From Bordetella genomosp. 1 (GTDB lineage: Bacteria; Pseudomonadota; Gammaproteobacteria; Burkholderiales; Burkholderiaceae_B): DNA of 64,000 nt. A program made the translations under genes and the position numbers. The notes below the pieces were generated by a model. It was not told where the DNA came from, ran no database searches, and saw only the letters and a program-made list of their open reading frames with translations. Numbering within the stretch: position 1 is the first letter of the stretch; each line of letters starts with the position of its first letter. The stretch is taken from positions 186,001 through 250,000 of the forward strand of contig NZ_NEVL01000007.1 in assembly GCF_002261335.1 (NCBI RefSeq). Reading direction: 5' to 3'. Positions 49,589 through 64,000 of this stretch are shown in pieces.

Positions 49589-49602
49589 TGATGGGTGCAG
49601 CT

Positions 49603-50793
<1,191 letters not shown>

Positions 50794-50871
50794 GATCTCA
50801 ATCCTTCAACTTTCAAGGAAATTTGGATATTTGCCGCGCCCCCCGGATCACGAGAGACGCGGCGACGGTTT

Positions 50872-52974
<2,103 letters not shown>

Positions 52975-52991
52975 GGTAGATAGTCCTTGAT

Positions 52992-53631: not shown

Positions 53632-54009
53632 TTAAGCCTTCTTCGGGCGCTTGGCGCCGTACTTCGAGCGGGCTTGCTTACGGTCCTTGACGCCTTGCAG
53701 GTCGAGGGAGCCGCGCACGATGTGGTAACGCACACCGGGCAAGTCCTTCACACGACCGCCACGCACCAGAACGACCGAGTGCTCCTGCAGGTTGTGGCCT
53801 TCGCCGCCGATGTACGAAATGACTTCGTAACCGTTGGTCAGACGCACCTTGGCAACCTTACGCAGAGCGGAGTTCGGCTTCTTGGGGGTGGTGGTGTAGA
53901 CACGGGTGCAAACGCCGCGACGCTGGGGGCAATTTTCCAGCGCGGGGCTCTTGCTCTTGATGATGCTGACTTCGCGCGGCTTGCGCACGAGTTGGCTAAT
54001 GGTAGGCAT
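53632..54009 (-). CDS. rpsL: Ribosomal protein uS12
   Basis: 125 residues, starting [13 protein letters not shown]12 lies at the decoding centre. Lys43 in [12 protein letters not shown] and the Lys in [13 protein letters not shown] are the wild-type residues, so no classical streptomycin-resistance change is present. It is the first gene of rpsL-rpsG-fusA-tuf-rpsJ. The promoter lies unusually far upstream. Confidence 0.99.
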
Positions 54010-54848: not shown

Positions 54849-55568
54849 TCAGGGGTTGGCGAACAGGTAGCCGCTGCCGTAGACCGTGCGGATCGGCAGG
54901 ATCACGCCCGCCTGCTCGGCCTTGCGGCGCAGCCGGCTGACCACCACGTCGATGCTGCGCGCCCCGGTCACGCGGGTGGCGACACCATCCGCGGCCAGCT
55001 CCTCGGCGAGCTGCTCGCGCGTCACCGCGCGGCCCGGCGATTCCAGCAACACCCGCAGGATCTGGCGCTCGTTGGCCGACAGCGACAACAGCACGCCGTT
55101 CGGCGCCCCCAGGGTCCAGTCCTGGTCGCGCAGCTCCCAGCGGCTGGTGTCCGCAGGGTCGAGCGCGATCAGGTCCGTGGGCGCGGGCTCGTTGAGCCAG
55201 ACCGGCAGGCGCCGCGCCAGCGCGAGCAGCACGCCGGCGAGCTCGCGATCATCGAGCGGCGCGGGCAGGCAGGCGTCCGCCCCGCTCTGCAGGCAGCGCA
55301 GGCGCGCCTCGGTGGGCAGGTCGGCGCCCGTCACGATCACGCCCAGCCCGGCGGAGCCGCGCAGACGTGCGATCAGGGCGTAGCCGAGTTCTCCCAGATC
55401 GGAGATATCCAGGATCACGGCGTCGTAGTTTTCCTCGGCCATCAGGCCGAAGAGTTCAAGCGGGGTCGAACAGCCCCGCGCGGAGATACCCGCTTGCAGC
55501 AGCACAGAGATGGTTTGAGTGCGGCTGGCTGCATCGGGCACCATGAGGAGTGTGCTCAATTGCTTCAT
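54849..55568 (-). CDS. OmpR-type regulator with degenerate receiver
   Basis: 239 residues. The receiver-like domain (1-120) keeps Asp54 (VILDIS) and Thr80 (VIVTGAD), but the acidic pair is reduced to Asp12 (MVPDAA) and the invariant Lys is Ala103 (CLPAPLDD), so normal phosphorylation switching is unlikely. The C-terminal winged helix is intact (LSANERQILRVLLESPGRAV, then SIDVVVSRLRRKAEQ and TVYGSGYLF). It diverges from a canonical OmpR-type regulator; both may share the control region between them. Confidence 0.88.
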   Translation of the reverse strand: MKQLSTLLMVPDAASRTQTISVLLQAGISARGCSTPLELFGLMAEENYDAVILDISDLGELGYALIARLRGSAGLGVIVTGADLPTEARLRCLQSGADACLPAPLDDRELAGVLLALARRLPVWLNEPAPTDLIALDPADTSRWELRDQDWTLGAPNGVLLSLSANERQILRVLLESPGRAVTREQLAEELAADGVATRVTGARSIDVVVSRLRRKAEQAGVILPIRTVYGSGYLFANP

Positions 55569-55674
55569 GACCAGACCTTGTCTCGCCGCGGCACCGTGCC
55601 GTGGCGTCGCACCCGTTGGAACCCACTGCGACAGGGACCTCGATGCGAATGCACCCAGTGTGGCGCTTTATTGC

Positions 55675-55734
55675 GTCAATCCCCAGTCAATATTCGTCAA
55701 GTTTGCAGTGTTTAACCCTCGAAATCCGGTCAAT
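55675..55734. promoter_or_regulatory. Phased GTCAA direct repeats
   Basis: GTCAAT at 55675, 55686 and 55729 and GTCAAG at 55696 lie in one direction with offsets of 0, 11, 21 and 54 bases, close to whole turns of the helix. OmpR-family dimers bind such tandem half-sites. They lie in the 257-base space between the two divergent regulator genes. Confidence 0.55.
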
Positions 55735-55825
55735 CTGTATCACAATACGTCACGCATGTTTATGATGCGCTTCGCCCCGAAGCGTTTTATGCGCGTGGCG
55801 CCCGAGCGGCGCGACGCTCTCCTCC

Positions 55826-56533
55826 ATGGCCATGAAAATCGCATCGCTCGAAGACGACCTGGACCAGGCGCGGCAGATCCAACAGGTGTTGGTGGATGCC
55901 GGGTATGAATGCCGCAGTTTCCAGAAGAGCCAGGACCTGCTGGCGGCCCTGCGCACGGACGCATTCGATCTGATCCTGGTCGACTGGCAGCTGCCGGACA
56001 TCGACGGCGACGAAGTCGTGCGGCGCCTGCGGGCGCGCTACGGCAACAGCGCCGCCATCATTTTCCTGACCAGCCGCAACCAGGAGGAAGACCTGGTCGA
56101 AGGCCTGCGCGCGGGCGCCGACGATTACATCGTCAAGCCGCTGCGCCCCGCCGAGCTGCTGGCACGCGCCGGCGCGCTCCTGCGCCGCACGCAGCCCTCG
56201 CGGCCCGATCTCACGGCGTTCAGCGTGGCGCAGTACCGCATCGATCCCGCCGAGCGCACGATCACCCTGCACGGCGAAGCCATTTCGCTGCCGCCCAAGG
56301 AATACGAGCTGGCGCTGATCTTCTTTCGCAACGTGGGCCGGCTGATGTCGCGCGATCTGCTCGCCGAAAGCGTGTGGAACCGCGAGATTCCCGCCACCTC
56401 GCGCACGCTCGACACGCACCTGTCCAACGTGCGCCAGAAGCTGCAGCTGCGCCCCGAAAACGGCGTGCGCCTCACCTCGTCATATGCGCTGGGCTATCGC
56501 CTCGACCTGGTGGCCGATTCGCCCGCCGCCTGA
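55826..56533 (+). CDS. OmpR-type response regulator
   Basis: 235 residues. The receiver is complete: Glu9-Asp10-Asp11, phospho-acceptor Asp53 (LVDWQLPDIDG), Thr82 and Lys104 (YIVKPL). The winged helix follows (LPPKEYELALIFFRNVGRLM, SRTLDTHLSNVRQKL, SSYALGYRL). No strong ribosome site is seen; MKIAS two codons later is an alternative start. It heads a rightward series with the LysM-FecR gene and the CHASE2 histidine kinase, its probable partner. Confidence 0.92.
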   Translation: MAMKIASLEDDLDQARQIQQVLVDAGYECRSFQKSQDLLAALRTDAFDLILVDWQLPDIDGDEVVRRLRARYGNSAAIIFLTSRNQEEDLVEGLRAGADDYIVKPLRPAELLARAGALLRRTQPSRPDLTAFSVAQYRIDPAERTITLHGEAISLPPKEYELALIFFRNVGRLMSRDLLAESVWNREIPATSRTLDTHLSNVRQKLQLRPENGVRLTSSYALGYRLDLVADSPAA

Positions 56534-56558
56534 TTTGCGCAGCACAAGGAGTATGTCA

Positions 56559-57671
56559 ATGAACCGGATCGCCCGGTACGTCTGTGCATGGATCGCAGGC
56601 GCCCTCGCCCCCCTCGCCATCGCCCAACCGGCCGGCGCACTCGGCGACGACTTCATCTTCCGCATCCGCTCGGGCGATACCCTGATCGCGCTTGCGGCGG
56701 CCTACACGGGTTCGGAGGCGAACTGGAGCCGGCTGCAGTCGCACAATGCCATCTCCAATCCGTATGCGCTGCCGGTCGGCATGGAGCTGCACATCCCGCT
56801 GTCCATGATTCCGATGGTGACCAGCGCCGCGCAGGTCGTGCACGTCGCTGGCAGCGCCAGCATGGCGACCGCGTCGCTGCGCGCCGGCATGACGGTGCCC
56901 GAAGGCGGCACCATCACCACCGCCCCCGACGGCTTCGTGACACTGCGCCTGTCGGACGCCACCGAAGTGACGATCCCGCCCTCAACCTCGATCACGCTCG
57001 AACGCGTGCGGCAGTTTGCACGCGTGCCGCTCACGGATTCGGTCATGCGCGTGAACGCCGGCAGCGTCGAATCGCGCGTGGCGCCGGCGGGTCAGGGCGT
57101 GGGCCGCTTCGAGATCCGCACGCCGGTGGCGGTCACGGGCGTGCGCGGCACGCGCTTTCGCGTCGACAGCTCGGCGCAGGGCGCGAGCCAGACCGTGCTC
57201 GAGGGCAGCGTGCGCCTGCAGCCGCACGCCCCCGACACGGCCGCGGCCCCGGCCACGACGACCAGGCCGATCAACGTGCAGGCCGGCCAGGGGGCGCAGG
57301 TGCGCGCCGACGGCTCGTTTGCCGGCGTGCGTGCGCTGCTGCCGGCGCCGACCCTGGGCGAGCCCACGCGCGGCGGCGCCGCCAGCGTCGAGGTCGTGCC
57401 GGTGCCGGGCGCGGTCGCCTATCGGGTGCGCGTGTCGCGCGATGCGCAAGGCATGCTGCTGGTCTCCGAACAACGCGCGCCGGGCCCGGTGCTGCGCTTT
57501 ACGGCGCCGGGCGCCGGCACCTATCATGTCGGCGTCAGCGCCATCGACGCGGAGGGCCTGGCAGGCTTCGAGACGCGCCGTCCGTTCGAAGGCGCCAATG
57601 CGCTGGTCTCGGCCGGCGGCCTGCCGGTCCAGAGCGGCACCGGTGGCATCATCATCCTGAGCGACTACTGA
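56559..57671 (+). CDS. Secreted LysM-FecR domain protein
   Basis: 370 residues. A signal peptide (MNRIARYVCAWIAGALAPLA) leads to a LysM domain (about 35-85: FRIRSGDTLIALAAAYTG, NPYALPVGMELHIP), which binds glycan chains, and a FecR domain (about 100-260: VPEGGTITTAPDGFVTLRLS, VAVTGVRGTRFRVDS). A fibronectin-like C-terminal part follows. AAGGAG seven bases before ATG 56559 sets the start. It is probably periplasmic and could report cell-wall state to the histidine kinase 16 bases downstream. No FecI sigma factor or TonB receptor is nearby. Confidence 0.85.
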   Translation: MNRIARYVCAWIAGALAPLAIAQPAGALGDDFIFRIRSGDTLIALAAAYTGSEANWSRLQSHNAISNPYALPVGMELHIPLSMIPMVTSAAQVVHVAGSASMATASLRAGMTVPEGGTITTAPDGFVTLRLSDATEVTIPPSTSITLERVRQFARVPLTDSVMRVNAGSVESRVAPAGQGVGRFEIRTPVAVTGVRGTRFRVDSSAQGASQTVLEGSVRLQPHAPDTAAAPATTTRPINVQAGQGAQVRADGSFAGVRALLPAPTLGEPTRGGAASVEVVPVPGAVAYRVRVSRDAQGMLLVSEQRAPGPVLRFTAPGAGTYHVGVSAIDAEGLAGFETRRPFEGANALVSAGGLPVQSGTGGIIILSDY

Positions 57672-57687
57672 GCCTGCCCATCGCATC

Positions 57688-60021
57688 GTGCCCCCTGTCC
57701 TGCCCCATGATCGCCGGCAACTGACGCAACGCTCCAGCATCGCGCTCACCTGCCTGCTGGTGGCGTTCGCCGCGCTGATGGGCGCGCTGGCAGGACTCGG
57801 GCGCATCGACCAGACCCTGTACGACCGCGCCATCTCGCTCATCAGCCGGCCCGCGCCCACCGACCTGGTGCTCGTCACGGTCGACGACGAAAGCATCGCG
57901 GCGCTCGGGCGCTGGCCCTGGACCCGCCGTACGCATGCCGCCCTGCTCGACCAGCTGCGCGAGGCGCGCGCGGTCGGGCTGGACCTGATCTTTTCCGAGG
58001 CCGACAGCAACGACCCGCAGGCCGACGCCGTCCTGGCCGATGCCATCCGGCGCCACGGGCATGTGGTGCTGCCCATCGTGCTCGACGACCTCGCGCGCGC
58101 GCAGACCTATCAACCGCCCATCCCCACGCTCGCCAACGCGGCGGCCGGCCTGGGCTTCATCAACATTCCGCTCGATCCCGACGGCGTGGTGCGCGAGACC
58201 GCGTGGAATCGCAAGGTGGGCGGCGTGCCCGTGCCGCACTTCGTGCTGTCGCTCATGGCGACGGGCGGCGAAGCCGCCGCGGCGCGCGCCTTCGGCCAGC
58301 GTTTCGGCGCGGAAGACCAGTCGCTGATTCCGTTCGCCGGGCCCCCGGGCCATCTGCGCACCGTGTCGTATCTGAGCGTTCTGCAGGGCCAGGTGCCGCC
58401 CGAATGGTTTCGCGACAAGTATGTGCTGGTGGGGGCCTGGGCCACGGGTCTGAGCGATGCCTTCCCCACGCCGGTCTCGCATCGCGCCAGCGGCATGGCC
58501 GGGGTCGAGATCCTCGGCAATCTGCTGCAGGCCGCGCGCCAGGAGATTTCGTTGCGCGCCGCAACCCCGTGGGAGAACGCGCTCGCCGCCGCCCTGCCGG
58601 TGCTGCTGCTGTGCCTGGTGCTGCGCCACGCATCGCCCAAGACCTCGCTGCTGCTGACCGTGTTGCTGCCGTGGATCATCCTCCCGGGCGCGTTGCTGAT
58701 GCTGCGCTACGGCGGCATCTGGTTTCCGCCCGCCGCGGCGCTCCTGGGCGTGGCGATCTGCTATCCGATCTGGAGCTGGCGCAGCCAGGAGACGGTGCTG
58801 CGCTACATGGACACCGAGCTGCGCCGCTTGCGGCGTGACTATGCGCCGGTGCTGAACCTGCCACGCCAGCCCTCGCTGCTGGGCCAGCGCTCACTCGAAG
58901 ACCGGCTGGGCCAGCTGCGCGACGCGCTGGCGCTGGTGCGCAACCTGCGGCGCTTCCTCACCGACGGGCTCGAGGGCATGCCCGACCCGACGCTGGTGTT
59001 CGACGTGACGCAGCGCCTGCAATTCCGCAACCGCGCGGCCGTGACCTTCTTCCGCAGGCTCAGCGCACGTTCGCCGCACGTGGGACAGCAGGCGGCGGAC
59101 CTGCTGGCGCGGGCCGTGCCCGGCGATGCCTCACGCGCGCAGATCCGGCTGGCGATGGACCGGGCCGCCGAGTCCGATGCGCGCGCGGGCTGGAGCGCGG
59201 AGGTCGAGGTACGGGACGGCGCGGCGCGCGACCTGATCGTGAAGTGCGCCCCCATCCACAACACCGACGGCCAGTTCGTGGGGACCATACTCACGCTCAG
59301 CGACATCACGACGATCCGGCAGGCGGAGCGGCACCGCGAGGAAACGCTGCGCTTCATTTCGCACGACATGCGGGCGCCGCAGAACTCGATCCTCGCGCTG
59401 ATCGACATGCGCGCGCGCGAACTCGACGCGCCCGACGAAACGCTGACGCGCATCGCCCAGCTCTCGCATCGCACCTTGCACCTGGTCGATGGCTTCGTGC
59501 AGCTCACGCGCGCGGAGTCGGTGAAGATGGCCGTGGTGCCTTTCGATCTGGCGGAGCTGCTGCGCGAAGTGGCCGACGACTTCTGGGCGGCCGCGCGTGC
59601 GCGCGAGATCACCGTGACGCTGACCGAGCCGCTGCCCGCCGCCGACGTGGCGGGCGATCAGGCGCTGTTGCGCCGCGCGTTGGGCAACCTGCTCGACAAC
59701 GCCATCAAGTACAGCCCCTTGGGTAGCAACGTGACCTGCAGCGTCGCGGCACAAGGCACGACGTGGGTGGTGTCGATACACGACGAAGGGCCCGGCATCG
59801 CCGCCGCCGATCTGCCGACCGTGTTCCAGCCGTTCACGCGCGTGGGCGCGGCGGAACGCGCCGACGCGGGCGGCGCGGGCCTGGGCCTGGCGTTCGTGCG
59901 GGCCGTGGCCGAACGCCATCACGGCAGCGCCGACGTCATCAGCATGCCCGGCCGCGGCTCGACCTTTCTGTTGCGCCTGCCGCGCGCGATCCAGACGGCC
60001 GAACCCCGCGAGACGCCCTAG
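57688..60021 (+). CDS. CHASE2-PAS sensor histidine kinase
   Basis: 777 residues. An N-terminal helix is followed by a periplasmic CHASE2 domain (about 45-290: VLVTVDDESIAALGRWPWTR, VLVGAWATGLSD), three further helices (about 300-370), a PAS-like domain (435-545), HisKA with His559 (RFISHDMRAPQNSIL) and HATPase_c (NLLDNAIKYSP, DEGPGIAAADL, GAGLGLAFV). It starts at GTG without a clear ribosome site, suggesting coupling to the LysM-FecR gene. Its stop shares CTAG with the facing pseudokinase gene. The likely target is the OmpR-type regulator two genes upstream. Confidence 0.92.
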   Translation: MPPVLPHDRRQLTQRSSIALTCLLVAFAALMGALAGLGRIDQTLYDRAISLISRPAPTDLVLVTVDDESIAALGRWPWTRRTHAALLDQLREARAVGLDLIFSEADSNDPQADAVLADAIRRHGHVVLPIVLDDLARAQTYQPPIPTLANAAAGLGFINIPLDPDGVVRETAWNRKVGGVPVPHFVLSLMATGGEAAAARAFGQRFGAEDQSLIPFAGPPGHLRTVSYLSVLQGQVPPEWFRDKYVLVGAWATGLSDAFPTPVSHRASGMAGVEILGNLLQAARQEISLRAATPWENALAAALPVLLLCLVLRHASPKTSLLLTVLLPWIILPGALLMLRYGGIWFPPAAALLGVAICYPIWSWRSQETVLRYMDTELRRLRRDYAPVLNLPRQPSLLGQRSLEDRLGQLRDALALVRNLRRFLTDGLEGMPDPTLVFDVTQRLQFRNRAAVTFFRRLSARSPHVGQQAADLLARAVPGDASRAQIRLAMDRAAESDARAGWSAEVEVRDGAARDLIVKCAPIHNTDGQFVGTILTLSDITTIRQAERHREETLRFISHDMRAPQNSILALIDMRARELDAPDETLTRIAQLSHRTLHLVDGFVQLTRAESVKMAVVPFDLAELLREVADDFWAAARAREITVTLTEPLPAADVAGDQALLRRALGNLLDNAIKYSPLGSNVTCSVAAQGTTWVVSIHDEGPGIAAADLPTVFQPFTRVGAAERADAGGAGLGLAFVRAVAERHHGSADVISMPGRGSTFLLRLPRAIQTAEPRETP

Positions 60022-61346
60022 CGGAACGTGTGGGTGATGGTGGTGGTGCGGCCCGGCTTGACCTCGATCGTGGTCTGGTAGGGCGGCAGCTCGGCATTGC
60101 GCACGGTGACGCTGTATTTGCCGGGCAACAGGCGCAGCTCTTTGAGCGGCGGACTGATGCCGCGCTTGGCGCCGTTGATCCAGATCTCGCCCCATGGCAT
60201 CACGTTGATGCGCACCAGCACGCGCGCGGGCGCGGGCTCGTTGGCGGGTGCCGCGGTTTCGCCCGGCGTCTCGGCCGGGGCGGCGTTCGGGCCGGTGCCT
60301 GTCTGCGGCCGTTCGCCGGTGTCTCCCGCCGTGGCCGCGCCGGGCGCCGCGGCGGTGCCGGCCGGATTCGTCGTGCCGTTGCCGGTGGCAGGCGGCGTGG
60401 CCGCGCTGCGGGTCTCGGGCTTCGCGGCGGCGCCATTCGCCGGCGTCGTGGCGGCCGGCAGGCCGCCGAGCGGCGGCGGCTCGGGCGGCAAGGCAGGCGG
60501 CGACACGGCCGGGCCGGCCTGCTGGCCCGCCGAGCCGATCGGCGGGACCATGGATTCGGAAGCGGTAATCACGCCCTTGGGCACGGCTGCGAGCCGGTTC
60601 CACCAATAAAAGCCGACACCGGCGGCGATGGCGATCAGCAACAGCACGAACAGCACCGCGCCGACCGAGGGCCGCGGCTGCTGGGGCTGGACCTGCTCGG
60701 CCCGCGGCGCGTCCACGCTGACCGAAATGGGCGCGATGGTGGCGAGCTCGGTGTCGTCCTGCACGGGGGCGAACGCGAGCAGCGCGGCCAGCGCCTCGAT
60801 GCTTTGGGGCCGGTCGGCGGGACGCACGGCCAGGCCGGCATCGATGGCGGCCAGAAACTCGCGGTCGTAGCGCGGCAGCTCGCGCTCGGCGAGCGGCACG
60901 TAGGTGTCGTTCACGACACGCTCGGGCGCCGGCGGCGGCACGCTGCCGGTGACGAGCGAATGCGCCATCGCACAGAGCGAATAGATGTCGCTCCAGGGGC
61001 CGCGCGGCCAGTCCGGCGTCTGGGCGTAGAACTCGAAGGGCGCGAAACCGGGCGTGGGCGCGGGCAGGTGCCCGTCGTGCTGGCGCGGCTGGGCCTGCGC
61101 GGCCAGCAGGTGGGCCCGGCCGTTTTCATCCAGGCCGACCGAATGGGTGCTGATGTCGGCGCAGATCCGGCCGCGTTCGTGGATGGAAGACAGGGGCGCG
61201 AGCAGCTCCGCCAGCACGCGCTTGATGCGCGATTGGGGAACGCCACCGCCGATCGTGGCCGCGATGGCGGACAACGGGCGGTGGGCCAGGGGGGCGGCGC
61301 CGTCGAACGGGCCGCGCGGAGTCGAGGAGCCGGCGGGAAAGGACAT
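60018..61346 (-). CDS. Membrane pseudokinase with PEGA domain
   Basis: About 442 residues. Residues 35-200 match the C-lobe of Ser/Thr kinases: helix E, a catalytic loop HERGRICADISTHSVGL, APFEFY for the APE motif and WSDIYSLCAMAHSLVTG. The N-lobe with Gly loop and Lys is missing; HRD is CAD, the loop Lys and Asn are Ser, and DFG is absent, so it should be inactive. A membrane helix (VLFVLLLIAIAAGVGFYWW), a Pro/Ala/Thr-rich linker and a periplasmic PEGA domain (LVRINVMPWGEIWINGAKRG) follow. The start at MSFPAG is the best of several. Confidence 0.75.
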   Translation of the reverse strand: MSFPAGSSTPRGPFDGAAPLAHRPLSAIAATIGGGVPQSRIKRVLAELLAPLSSIHERGRICADISTHSVGLDENGRAHLLAAQAQPRQHDGHLPAPTPGFAPFEFYAQTPDWPRGPWSDIYSLCAMAHSLVTGSVPPPAPERVVNDTYVPLAERELPRYDREFLAAIDAGLAVRPADRPQSIEALAALLAFAPVQDDTELATIAPISVSVDAPRAEQVQPQQPRPSVGAVLFVLLLIAIAAGVGFYWWNRLAAVPKGVITASESMVPPIGSAGQQAGPAVSPPALPPEPPPLGGLPAATTPANGAAAKPETRSAATPPATGNGTTNPAGTAAAPGAATAGDTGERPQTGTGPNAAPAETPGETAAPANEPAPARVLVRINVMPWGEIWINGAKRGISPPLKELRLLPGKYSVTVRNAELPPYQTTIEVKPGRTTTITHTFR

Positions 61347-61571
61347 ATCACTCAGTACGCGCCGCCGGGCCCCGTCGGGATCCTGCCTCGGCGGATCCGA
61401 CACGGCACCACGGCGCATCAGCACGAAAAACAATCGGAATCGCCAGGGCGGCCCAGGTAAAACCGTACACCAGGAAGCCCGCCTTGACGATATCATTTGC
61501 ACCGCCGGTAGCCTCGTTGCGACATCCCGGCGGCGCAAGCATAAACCACAGCCACAGGATTGCCCGTCACC

Positions 61572-61982
61572 ATGTCTGTAAAGACCCTCCCAACCGTTGC
61601 CGCACGCTGCCTTTCCCCGCTGCTTTTCGCCGCCCTGGCGGGCTGCGCCGTGACCCGTGGCGAGGCGCCCGAAGCGCCGGCCACCACCGAAGCGGTGGCC
61701 GCCGTGGAACAGGCCCGCGAGAGCTACGCCGCCGGACGCTACGGCGAGGTCATCCGCCTGGTCGCCACCTCCGACGACATCGCGCTGGCCCCGCGCGCAC
61801 TGCGCGTCGAGGCCTTCAAGCTGCAGGCGTTCAGCTATTGCGTGAGCAACTATCGCCAGCTCTGCGAGGACGCCTTCGTGCGCATCCTGGCGCTGCAACC
61901 GGACTTCGCGCTGGCGCCCAACGAGGCCGGCCACCCCAACTGGGGCCCGGTGTTCCGCACCGCCCAGCAGCGCGTGCGCTGA
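61572..61982 (+). CDS. Small lipoprotein, TssQ-like
   Basis: 136 residues. A lipoprotein signal ends in LFAALAGCAVTRG; the mature part is helical and TPR-like (AVAAVEQARESYAAGRYGEV, FKLQAFSYCVSN) and ends HPNWGPVFRTAQQRVR. The pattern recalls the TssQ family of type VI secretion-associated lipoproteins, from memory and unchecked; no type VI gene is in the window. It diverges from the pseudokinase gene across 225 bases and converges on rpoC. Confidence 0.7.
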   Translation: MSVKTLPTVAARCLSPLLFAALAGCAVTRGEAPEAPATTEAVAAVEQARESYAAGRYGEVIRLVATSDDIALAPRALRVEAFKLQAFSYCVSNYRQLCEDAFVRILALQPDFALAPNEAGHPNWGPVFRTAQQRVR

Positions 61983-62110: not shown

Positions 62111-64000
62111 TTACTCGTTCGAACCTTCGGCGTCGGCCTGGGGCGCGTCGCCTTCCGGCTCGGAACCCACCGTGACCGGTGCGTCTTCGAACGGGTTGGC
62201 GAGCTGACGAGCGGCTTCGCGCTCGGCGGCTTCCAGCGCTTCCTTGTCCTTGCGGGCAAGGTGATACGCCAGACCGGTACCTGCCGGGATCAGACGACCC
62301 ACGATCACGTTTTCCTTCAGACCGCGCAGATCATCACGCTTGCCCATGATCGCCGCTTCGGTCAGCACGCGGGTCGTTTCCTGGAACGACGCCGCGGAGA
62401 TGAACGAATCGGTCGACAGCGAGGCCTTCGTGATACCGAGCAGCACGTTATCGTAGATGGCCGGACGCTTGTTCTCGGCGAGAACGCGATCGTTCTCGTT
62501 GAGCAGCTCCGAACGCTCGACCTGCTCGCCGGGGATGAACTCGGCGTCGCCCGGATCGGTGATGTTCACACGGCGCAGCATCTGACGAACAATCACTTCG
62601 ATGTGCTTGTCGTTGATCTTCACGCCCTGCAGACGGTACACGTCCTGGACTTCGTCGACGATGTAGGTCGCCAGTTTCTCGATACCCTGCAGGCGCAGGA
62701 TGTCGTGCGGGTCGGCCGGGCCGTCGACGATCATTTCGCCCTTGTTCACCACCTGGCCGTCGTGCACCAGAACCTGCTTTTCCTTCGGAATCAGGAACTC
62801 GTGGCTCACGCCTTCGAGGTCGGTGATCACCAGACGCTGCTTGCCCTTGGTGTCCTTGCCGAACGAGACCGTGCCAGTGACTTCGGCGAGCATGCCGGCA
62901 TCCTTGGGCGAACGGGCTTCAAACAGCTCGGCCACGCGCGGCAGACCGCCGGTAATGTCGCGGGTCTTCTGCGATTCCTGCGGAATACGCGCCAGCACTT
63001 CACCCACGGCCACTTGCTGCGAGTCACGCACGGTGATCAGCGCGCCCACCGGGAACGAGATGTTCACGGCGTGATCGGTGCCGGCGATGCGGACGTCGTC
63101 GCCCGCTTCGTTGACCAGCTTGATCTGCGGACGCATGACGACCTTGCCGCCGCGCGTCTTGGGCGTGATCACGACCAGCGTGGACAGGCCGGTGACTTCG
63201 TCGACCTGCTTGGCGACGGTGACGCCTTCTTCGATGTTCTCGAAGCGCACGGCACCGGCGTATTCCGACACGATCGGACGGGTCAGCGGATCCCACGTGG
63301 CCAGACGGGTACCGGCCTTGACGGCTTCGCCGTCGCCGACCAGCACGGTCGCGCCGTACGGGATCTTGTGACGTTCGCGCTCACGACCGTTGTCGTCGAA
63401 GATCGCGAGTTCGCCCGAACGCGAGATCGCCACGCGCTCGCCCTTGGCGTTGGTCACGTAACGCATCGTGCTCGTGAAGCCGACCGTACCGTTGGACTTG
63501 GTTTCCACGGCGCTGGCCAGTGCCGAACGCGACGCCGCACCACCGATGTGGAACGTACGCATCGTCAGCTGCGTGCCCGGTTCACCGATCGACTGAGCGG
63601 CGATGACGCCGACGGCCTCACCGACGTTCACGTGCGAACCGCGGCCGAGGTCGCGGCCATAGCAGTGCGCGCACAGACCATGACGGGTTTCGCAGGTCAG
63701 CGGCGTGCGGACCTTCACTTCGTCGACGCCGATGCGATCGATCATGTCGACCAGATCTTCGTCGAGCAGCGAGCCGGCGGTGATCGCGGTTTCCTGCGTG
63801 TCGGGGTTGACGATGTCGATCGCAGCCACGCGGCCGAGGATACGGTCGCGCAGCGGTTCGATGACTTCACCACCTTCGACCAGCGCCTTCATCGAGTAGC
63901 CGTGCGAGGTGCCGCAATCGTCTTCGGTGATCACCAGATCCTGCGTCACGTCGACCAGACGACGGGTCAGGTAACCCGAGTTTGCCGTCTTCAGTGCCGT
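62111..64000 (-). CDS. rpoC: RNA polymerase beta' subunit, C-terminal part (right end cut)
   Basis: The frame is open to the window edge; 629 C-terminal residues are visible. They include the second zinc site (CGTSHGYSM, then [16 protein letters not shown]), the trigger-loop-side block [20 protein letters not shown], and the jaw and C-terminal regions ending in an acidic tail. It is the catalytic large subunit of RNA polymerase, last in the rplKAJL-rpoBC group. rpsL, often its neighbour, lies 8 kb away beyond the signalling block. Confidence 0.99.

Follow-up and report, generated by a model that had tools for sequence, protein, structure and literature searches.

The window analysed here is a 64,000-nucleotide stretch of Bordetella genomosp. 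1 (NCBI RefSeq assembly GCF_002261335.1, contig NZ_NEVL01000007.1, positions 186,001 to 250,000; contig C7 of a 5.6-Mb genome in 7 contigs, G000 in our set) in which six genes lie between rpoC and rpsL: an atypical OmpR-family regulator (degRR), a second OmpR-type regulator (RR2), a LysM-FecR protein, a CHASE2 histidine kinase, a PEGA pseudokinase and a TssQ-family lipoprotein (Table 1). A preliminary description had placed these genes in the interval and named their domains, and it was right on both counts: open reading frames (ORFs) and domain matches recovered all six at the positions and on the strands it gave, and Pfam and NCBIfam scans agreed with its assignments. It had also held that no described system has such a set. 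Judged by gene content and order, however, RR2, the LysM-FecR protein and the CHASE2 kinase are the already named BiofilmReg operon; this core is ordinary, and what is of interest is a lineage-specific extension of it, made up of degRR and of the pseudokinase and TssQ genes (hereafter the pair).

Table 1. Features of the rpoC–rpsL interval, in window positions.
Feature	Coordinates	Strand	Evidence or remark
rpsL, one boundary	53632..54009	(-)	ORF runs on to 54126; protein matched in 99 of 101 genomes
degRR, atypical OmpR-family regulator (outer regulator)	54849..55568	(-)	Pfam Response_reg 31.9 bits, Trans_reg_C 54.7 bits
Divergent promoter region common to degRR and RR2	55569..55825		
Candidate regulator box, direct repeat AGTCAATATTCGTCAAGTTTGCA	55685..55707	(+)	
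Promoter-like hexamers ATCACA-16-TATGAT for the operon	55739..55766	(+)	TATNAT block recurs in alignment
RR2, canonical OmpR/CreB-type response regulator, BiofilmReg component 1	55826..56533	(+)	Pfam Response_reg 89.5 bits
LysM-FecR predicted exported protein, BiofilmReg component 2	56559..57671	(+)	Pfam FecR 55.2 bits, LysM 29.9 bits
CHASE2-PAS-HisKA-HATPase histidine kinase, BiofilmReg component 3	57688..60021	(+)	Pfam CHASE2 176.7 bits, HATPase_c 94.2 bits
PEGA pseudokinase: PpkA-like C-lobe, one transmembrane helix, PEGA domain	60018..61346	(-)	
TssQ-family lipoprotein	61572..61982	(+)	NCBIfam NF038027 122.2 bits (cut-off 65); lipobox LAGC read by eye
rpoC 3' part, other boundary	62111..63949	(-)	

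BiofilmReg operons consist of a CreB-type regulator, a LysM-FecR protein and a CHASE2-PAS kinase, and the three-gene form is on record from both Bordetella and Achromobacter (Voronina et al. 2016, PMC5192318); at the window locus the three genes follow in the same order on one strand, and RR2, with receiver Asp and Lys and with EDD, VDW and KPL motifs, is a canonical OmpR-type response regulator. Two traits reported for BiofilmReg are a LysM-FecR start within the regulator gene and the lack of promoters between the genes (PMC5192318). In the window, an alternative LysM-FecR start (56484) lies inside RR2, the better start falling 25 bp past the RR2 stop, and two promoter-like pairs were found in the region (0.5 expected), one ahead of the operon and the other within LysM-FecR. 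In Burkholderia contaminans, biofilm formation was abolished by inserting a plasposon into the BiofilmReg regulator (PMC5192318); mutant data come from that organism only, and a biofilm role at the window locus would hold by analogy with it. The Burkholderia operon differs in having a fourth gene, DUF4136, instead, and neither an atypical divergent regulator nor a pseudokinase/TssQ pair is described in the parts of that paper covered here, a term search of its main text returning no mention of rpoC, rpsL or PEGA. Searches of open-licence PMC literature, assessed from titles and abstracts, turned up no paper that deals with the extended gene set.

We sought rpsL and the rpoC C-terminus in 101 genomes and found both in 97 (57 of the window's family and 40 of other families). 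That the two genes are usually neighbours, as the preliminary description had assumed, holds for the other families, in which 38 of the 40 pairs lie on one contig with a median gap of 205 bp (≤1.2 kb in 34 of the 38). In the window's family, 51 of 57 pairs share a contig, the median gap is 7,548 bp and only 8 of the 51 gaps are ≤1.2 kb; same-contig gaps span <1 kb to 53 kb, two genomes with gaps of >1 Mb being set aside. The interval is thus an insertion hotspot in this family (for example, in G056, G022, G023 and G043), and the insert, though real, is typical of the family and not special to Bordetella genomosp. 1; the idea that it is private to the window genome was rejected. In one genome of the same genus (G007), rpsL (C1:3293231) and rpoC (C1:19227) lie 3.27 Mb apart, as if rearranged inside the interval.

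The core follows this site closely. A CHASE2 kinase was found in 52 of the 101 genomes; of the 41 that belong to the family, 36 have it no more than 15 kb from rpoC or rpsL, as against none of the 11 in other families (contig breaks may conceal some placements). Among these 36 genomes (the window's included; G025 and G056, with the kinase elsewhere, were also tabulated), the kinase and RR2 were present at the site in all 36, LysM-FecR in 30, degRR in 16, the pseudokinase in 15 and TssQ in 11. Occupancy therefore differs between the genes, and a single six-gene unit, the central claim of the preliminary description, was rejected on this comparison of the interval within the family, and it fails the refutation test that the description itself had set, a block already named or genes found independently of one another; the envelope-sensing role it proposed is reasonable, but the six genes do not make up one circuit unit across relatives. 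What survives of it is the lineage-specific extension: in the three genera whose site combines core and pair (g1, which is Bordetella, g4 and g16), 11 of 18 genomes carry the complete six-gene set, two of them (G007 and G014) with broken frames. The other 18 of the 36 genomes, from further genera of the family, all have the three core genes, and one of them (G045) has degRR. LysM-FecR is missing at the site in G004, G008, G010, G011, G012 and G013 (G008 and G012 are 73% and 77% complete). Ratios of non-synonymous to synonymous substitution (dN/dS) were 0.06–0.30 over the six genes in six genome pairs (four pairs for LysM-FecR and TssQ).

Several of these loci show apparent damage or loss. In G014 (L048) the kinase, LysM-FecR and regulator genes look frame-broken, and in G007 the kinase frame is split (L044 10000-12286); a damaged kinase has been reported for Bordetella pertussis 18323 (PMC5192318). 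LysM-FecR and TssQ, two envelope-anchored parts, were possibly lost jointly in G004, G010 and G011.

The pseudokinase is homologous to half of a kinase known from type VI secretion systems (T6SS). A profile of nine site copies, compared with the PDB, matched the T6SS Thr-kinase PpkA (5hnv) over the C-lobe, some 160 residues, at 6.3 × 10−38, the next chain following at 1.5 × 10−4. Active protein kinases carry the VAIK Lys and the motifs HRDxxxxN and DFG, and the window protein keeps none of these intact: PpkA HRDISLDN reads CADISTHS in the window protein and DFG reads AAQ, the catalytic-loop Asn and DFG are missing in the aligned site copies and T6SS-cluster copies alike (three of 38 rows, G064, G081 and G096, were left out of this alignment as partial), and the N-lobe is absent in the copies seen in full. 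The protein further differs from PpkA in its C-terminal PEGA domain (19.6 bits, slightly below the Pfam cut-off of 20.8) and in lying outside a T6SS cluster. Its start is most likely at 61346, a longer ORF to 62051 being an upstream extension. In three genomes of other families (G066, G073 and G087), a kinase that keeps HRD and DFG directly precedes TssQ; in G066 and G073 this kinase also has a C-terminal PEGA-like part and PP2C adjoins the module, joined in G073 by FHA. The window pair differs from these modules in that its genes are divergent and half of its kinase is lost, and an active kinase-PEGA/TssQ module was probably the ancestral form. A scan of genome contigs returned one locus only, in Bordetella genomosp. 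5.

The TssQ protein was modelled as all-helical (predicted local distance difference test score, pLDDT, 83.8), and a Foldseek search with this model returned TPR-like folds, none at E ≤ 0.001. Matches to TssK and TssC in the window genome fall on contig C4, and the site pair, on C7, is not in a T6SS cluster; a second pseudokinase/TssQ pair on C4 flanks TssJ, TssK, TssL and TagF, its members divergent like those of the site pair and about 8 kb apart. In G023, T6SS genes (TssK, TssM, TagF and ClpV-like) lie between rpsL and rpoC with the pseudokinase and TssQ at either side, divergent as in the window, and in G019 the same two genes enclose VgrG and DUF2169/pentapeptide genes (Pfam) within the rpoC–rpsL gap; neither genome gave a match to the core kinase. 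The members of the pair are about 7 kb apart in the gap in both G019 and G060 (the genes in between were scanned in G019). In the pseudokinase tree (38 rows), a clade (100/100) unites the 15 site copies from the three genera, and 8 copies from TssK-holding loci group apart from it (87/86), the deeper forks among site, T6SS, G019/G060 and G023 copies being unsettled; the TssQ tree (33 rows) is poorly resolved and too weak to decide. These gene arrangements allow a history in which a T6SS cluster formerly occupied the site and the pair would be what remains of its ends.

The pair is also retained where no T6SS is found. Five genomes of the same genus (G001, G003, G006, G007 and G014) have both of its genes at the site, although searches for TssK and TssC gave nothing in them, and in two others (G002 and G005) TssC is present and TssK matches only weakly. 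Between G001 and G006, omega was 0.15 for the pseudokinase and 0.14 for TssQ, and the site pair is under purifying selection in relatives without a T6SS. Across the 101 genomes, TssQ was found in 41 and TssK in 39, the two together in 24, TssQ only in 17 and TssK only in 15; TssC was absent from all nine of the TssQ-only genomes tested for it. Three NF038027 loci inspected in TssK-less genomes (G064, G073 and G096) adjoin Ser/Thr kinases.

At the other end of the insert, degRR departs from the canonical OmpR-type receiver pattern (Asp, Lys and an acidic pair). In an alignment of 16 orthologues (one of them, from G014, has a break close to the end), every sequence keeps the acceptor Asp but none keeps the conserved Lys, diverse residues standing in its place; the acidic pocket is eroded, while the winged helix-turn-helix DNA-binding domain is strongly conserved. 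Atypical OmpR-type regulators can act without phosphate. The promoter region that degRR shares with RR2 holds a box, AGTCAANNTTCGTCAANTTTGCA, about 30 bp upstream of the promoter-like pair for RR2, which degRR is predicted to bind. The box was found with ≤2 mismatches in 15 of the 15 degRR genomes of the three genera (15 of 16 degRR genomes overall); in the 22 genomes that lack degRR, which include G008, G012 and G013 of the Bordetella genus, the best match on either strand had ≥6 mismatches. In the window genome it occurs once at ≤3 mismatches (reversed control, 0), with no second degRR box in a genome-wide scan. A looser, earlier half-site scan matched G045 and 1 of 15 genomes without degRR (the AT-rich G053). 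No common box was found before the pseudokinase and TssQ, an alignment of 11 intergenic stretches showing a TATNAT-like block only.

Taken together, these observations make it probable, in our assessment, that the locus is a BiofilmReg-type envelope-sensing operon to which Bordetella and two neighbouring genera have added a regulator dedicated to the locus and an exapted pair of T6SS type. The predicted exported LysM-FecR protein would sit on peptidoglycan as a co-sensor, reporting the state of the envelope to the periplasmic CHASE2 domain; the kinase would phosphorylate RR2, which in turn may control surface or biofilm genes. We propose this route because CHASE2 receptors recur with FecR and TPR proteins, and because there is a precedent in NsrA: CHASE2 receptors cluster with FecR-domain and TPR proteins in Campylobacterota (PMC9239204, in the parts covered), where the output differs in being an adenylate cyclase and not a histidine kinase, and CHASE2 cyclases of Sinorhizobium meliloti sense via the outer-membrane protein NsrA (PMC13001267, likewise in part). 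Acting independently of phosphate, degRR would bind the direct-repeat box in the common promoter and set the expression of the operon and of itself. Tail to tail behind the kinase, the pair would place a dead PpkA-type C-lobe at the inner membrane, joined to a periplasmic PEGA domain, and a TPR-like TssQ lipoprotein in the outer membrane. A scaffold role suits the pair because of this predicted span across inner membrane, periplasm and outer membrane, and its most likely function is T6SS-independent, as a scaffold in the envelope or an accessory of the sensor; a connection with the sensor is suggested by a single observation, the conserved adjacency in 15 genomes.

Several results weigh against this account. 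All 18 genomes of other genera with the core at the site lack the pair there (some retrieved stretches stop short of rpoC, and whole-genome searches put no pseudokinase or TssQ there), and the core therefore does not need it; in G004, G010 and G011 (L041, L045 and L046), the kinase, RR2 and the pseudokinase remain but LysM-FecR and TssQ are both missing. The box of G045, a distant genome that has degRR, shows 6 mismatches and is no better than in G056 and G055, which lack degRR (shuffles gave an equally good box in 6 of 200, 0 of 200 and 3 of 200 cases for G045, G056 and G055, respectively), and the association of box and degRR could, at least in part, reflect common descent alone. The AlphaFold model of the pseudokinase, built from a two-row alignment, is too poor to use (pLDDT 41.6), and a scan of the locus found no terminator, so that its transcription units are predicted ones.

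The most serious alternative is that the BiofilmReg core and the pair are chance neighbours in an insertion hotspot, sharing a place and no function. The variable gap of the family would fit this, as would the intervals of G023 and G019, in which the pair flanks other cargo and the core kinase is unmatched, and the pair-less cores of the other genera. Against it, pseudokinase and core have kept their adjacency and orientation across the three genera (15 genomes, TssQ included in 11) despite protein identities of 40–50%, and no genome of these genera has degRR but lacks the pseudokinase (G013 has neither; the incomplete G008 and G012 are also unmatched). We regard chance adjacency as quite possible, though short of an even prospect. 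A kinase with two outputs, RR2 and a degRR phosphorylated via a divergent pocket, would fit the invariant acceptor Asp, but with the conserved Lys gone from every orthologue, its substitutes varied and the pocket eroded, we consider this unlikely. Least probable of all is a pair that still serves the C4 T6SS as a displaced accessory, as the PpkA-like C-lobe, the T6SS-associated label of the NCBI TssQ family and the paralogous pair in the C4 cluster might suggest, given that this cluster owns a separate copy, that five same-genus genomes retain the site pair with TssK and TssC both unfound, and that TssQ so often occurs without TssK and, where tested, without TssC.

Elsewhere in the window, a 1,130-aa open frame at 49591-52983 (+), opposite apparent tuf and fusA genes (identified by eye), is most likely a high-GC shadow ORF.

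These results correct the claim of an undescribed system by identifying the core of the locus with an operon for which a biofilm mutant phenotype has been published. They also call for caution in taking a TssQ annotation as evidence of a T6SS, as 17 of the 41 TssQ-positive genomes have no TssK match. A more specific version of the BiofilmReg-extension reading, which we put forward tentatively and hold to be doubtful as it stands, is that the dead half of a PpkA-type kinase and a TssQ lipoprotein were recruited from type VI secretion to serve as a membrane-spanning scaffold within a two-component circuit of the envelope or biofilm, a circuit under a regulator that acts independently of phosphate and has one binding site in the genome. 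In any case, our findings raise the question of why purifying selection maintains a truncated T6SS-type kinase and TssQ next to an envelope sensor in Bordetella genomes that have no T6SS.

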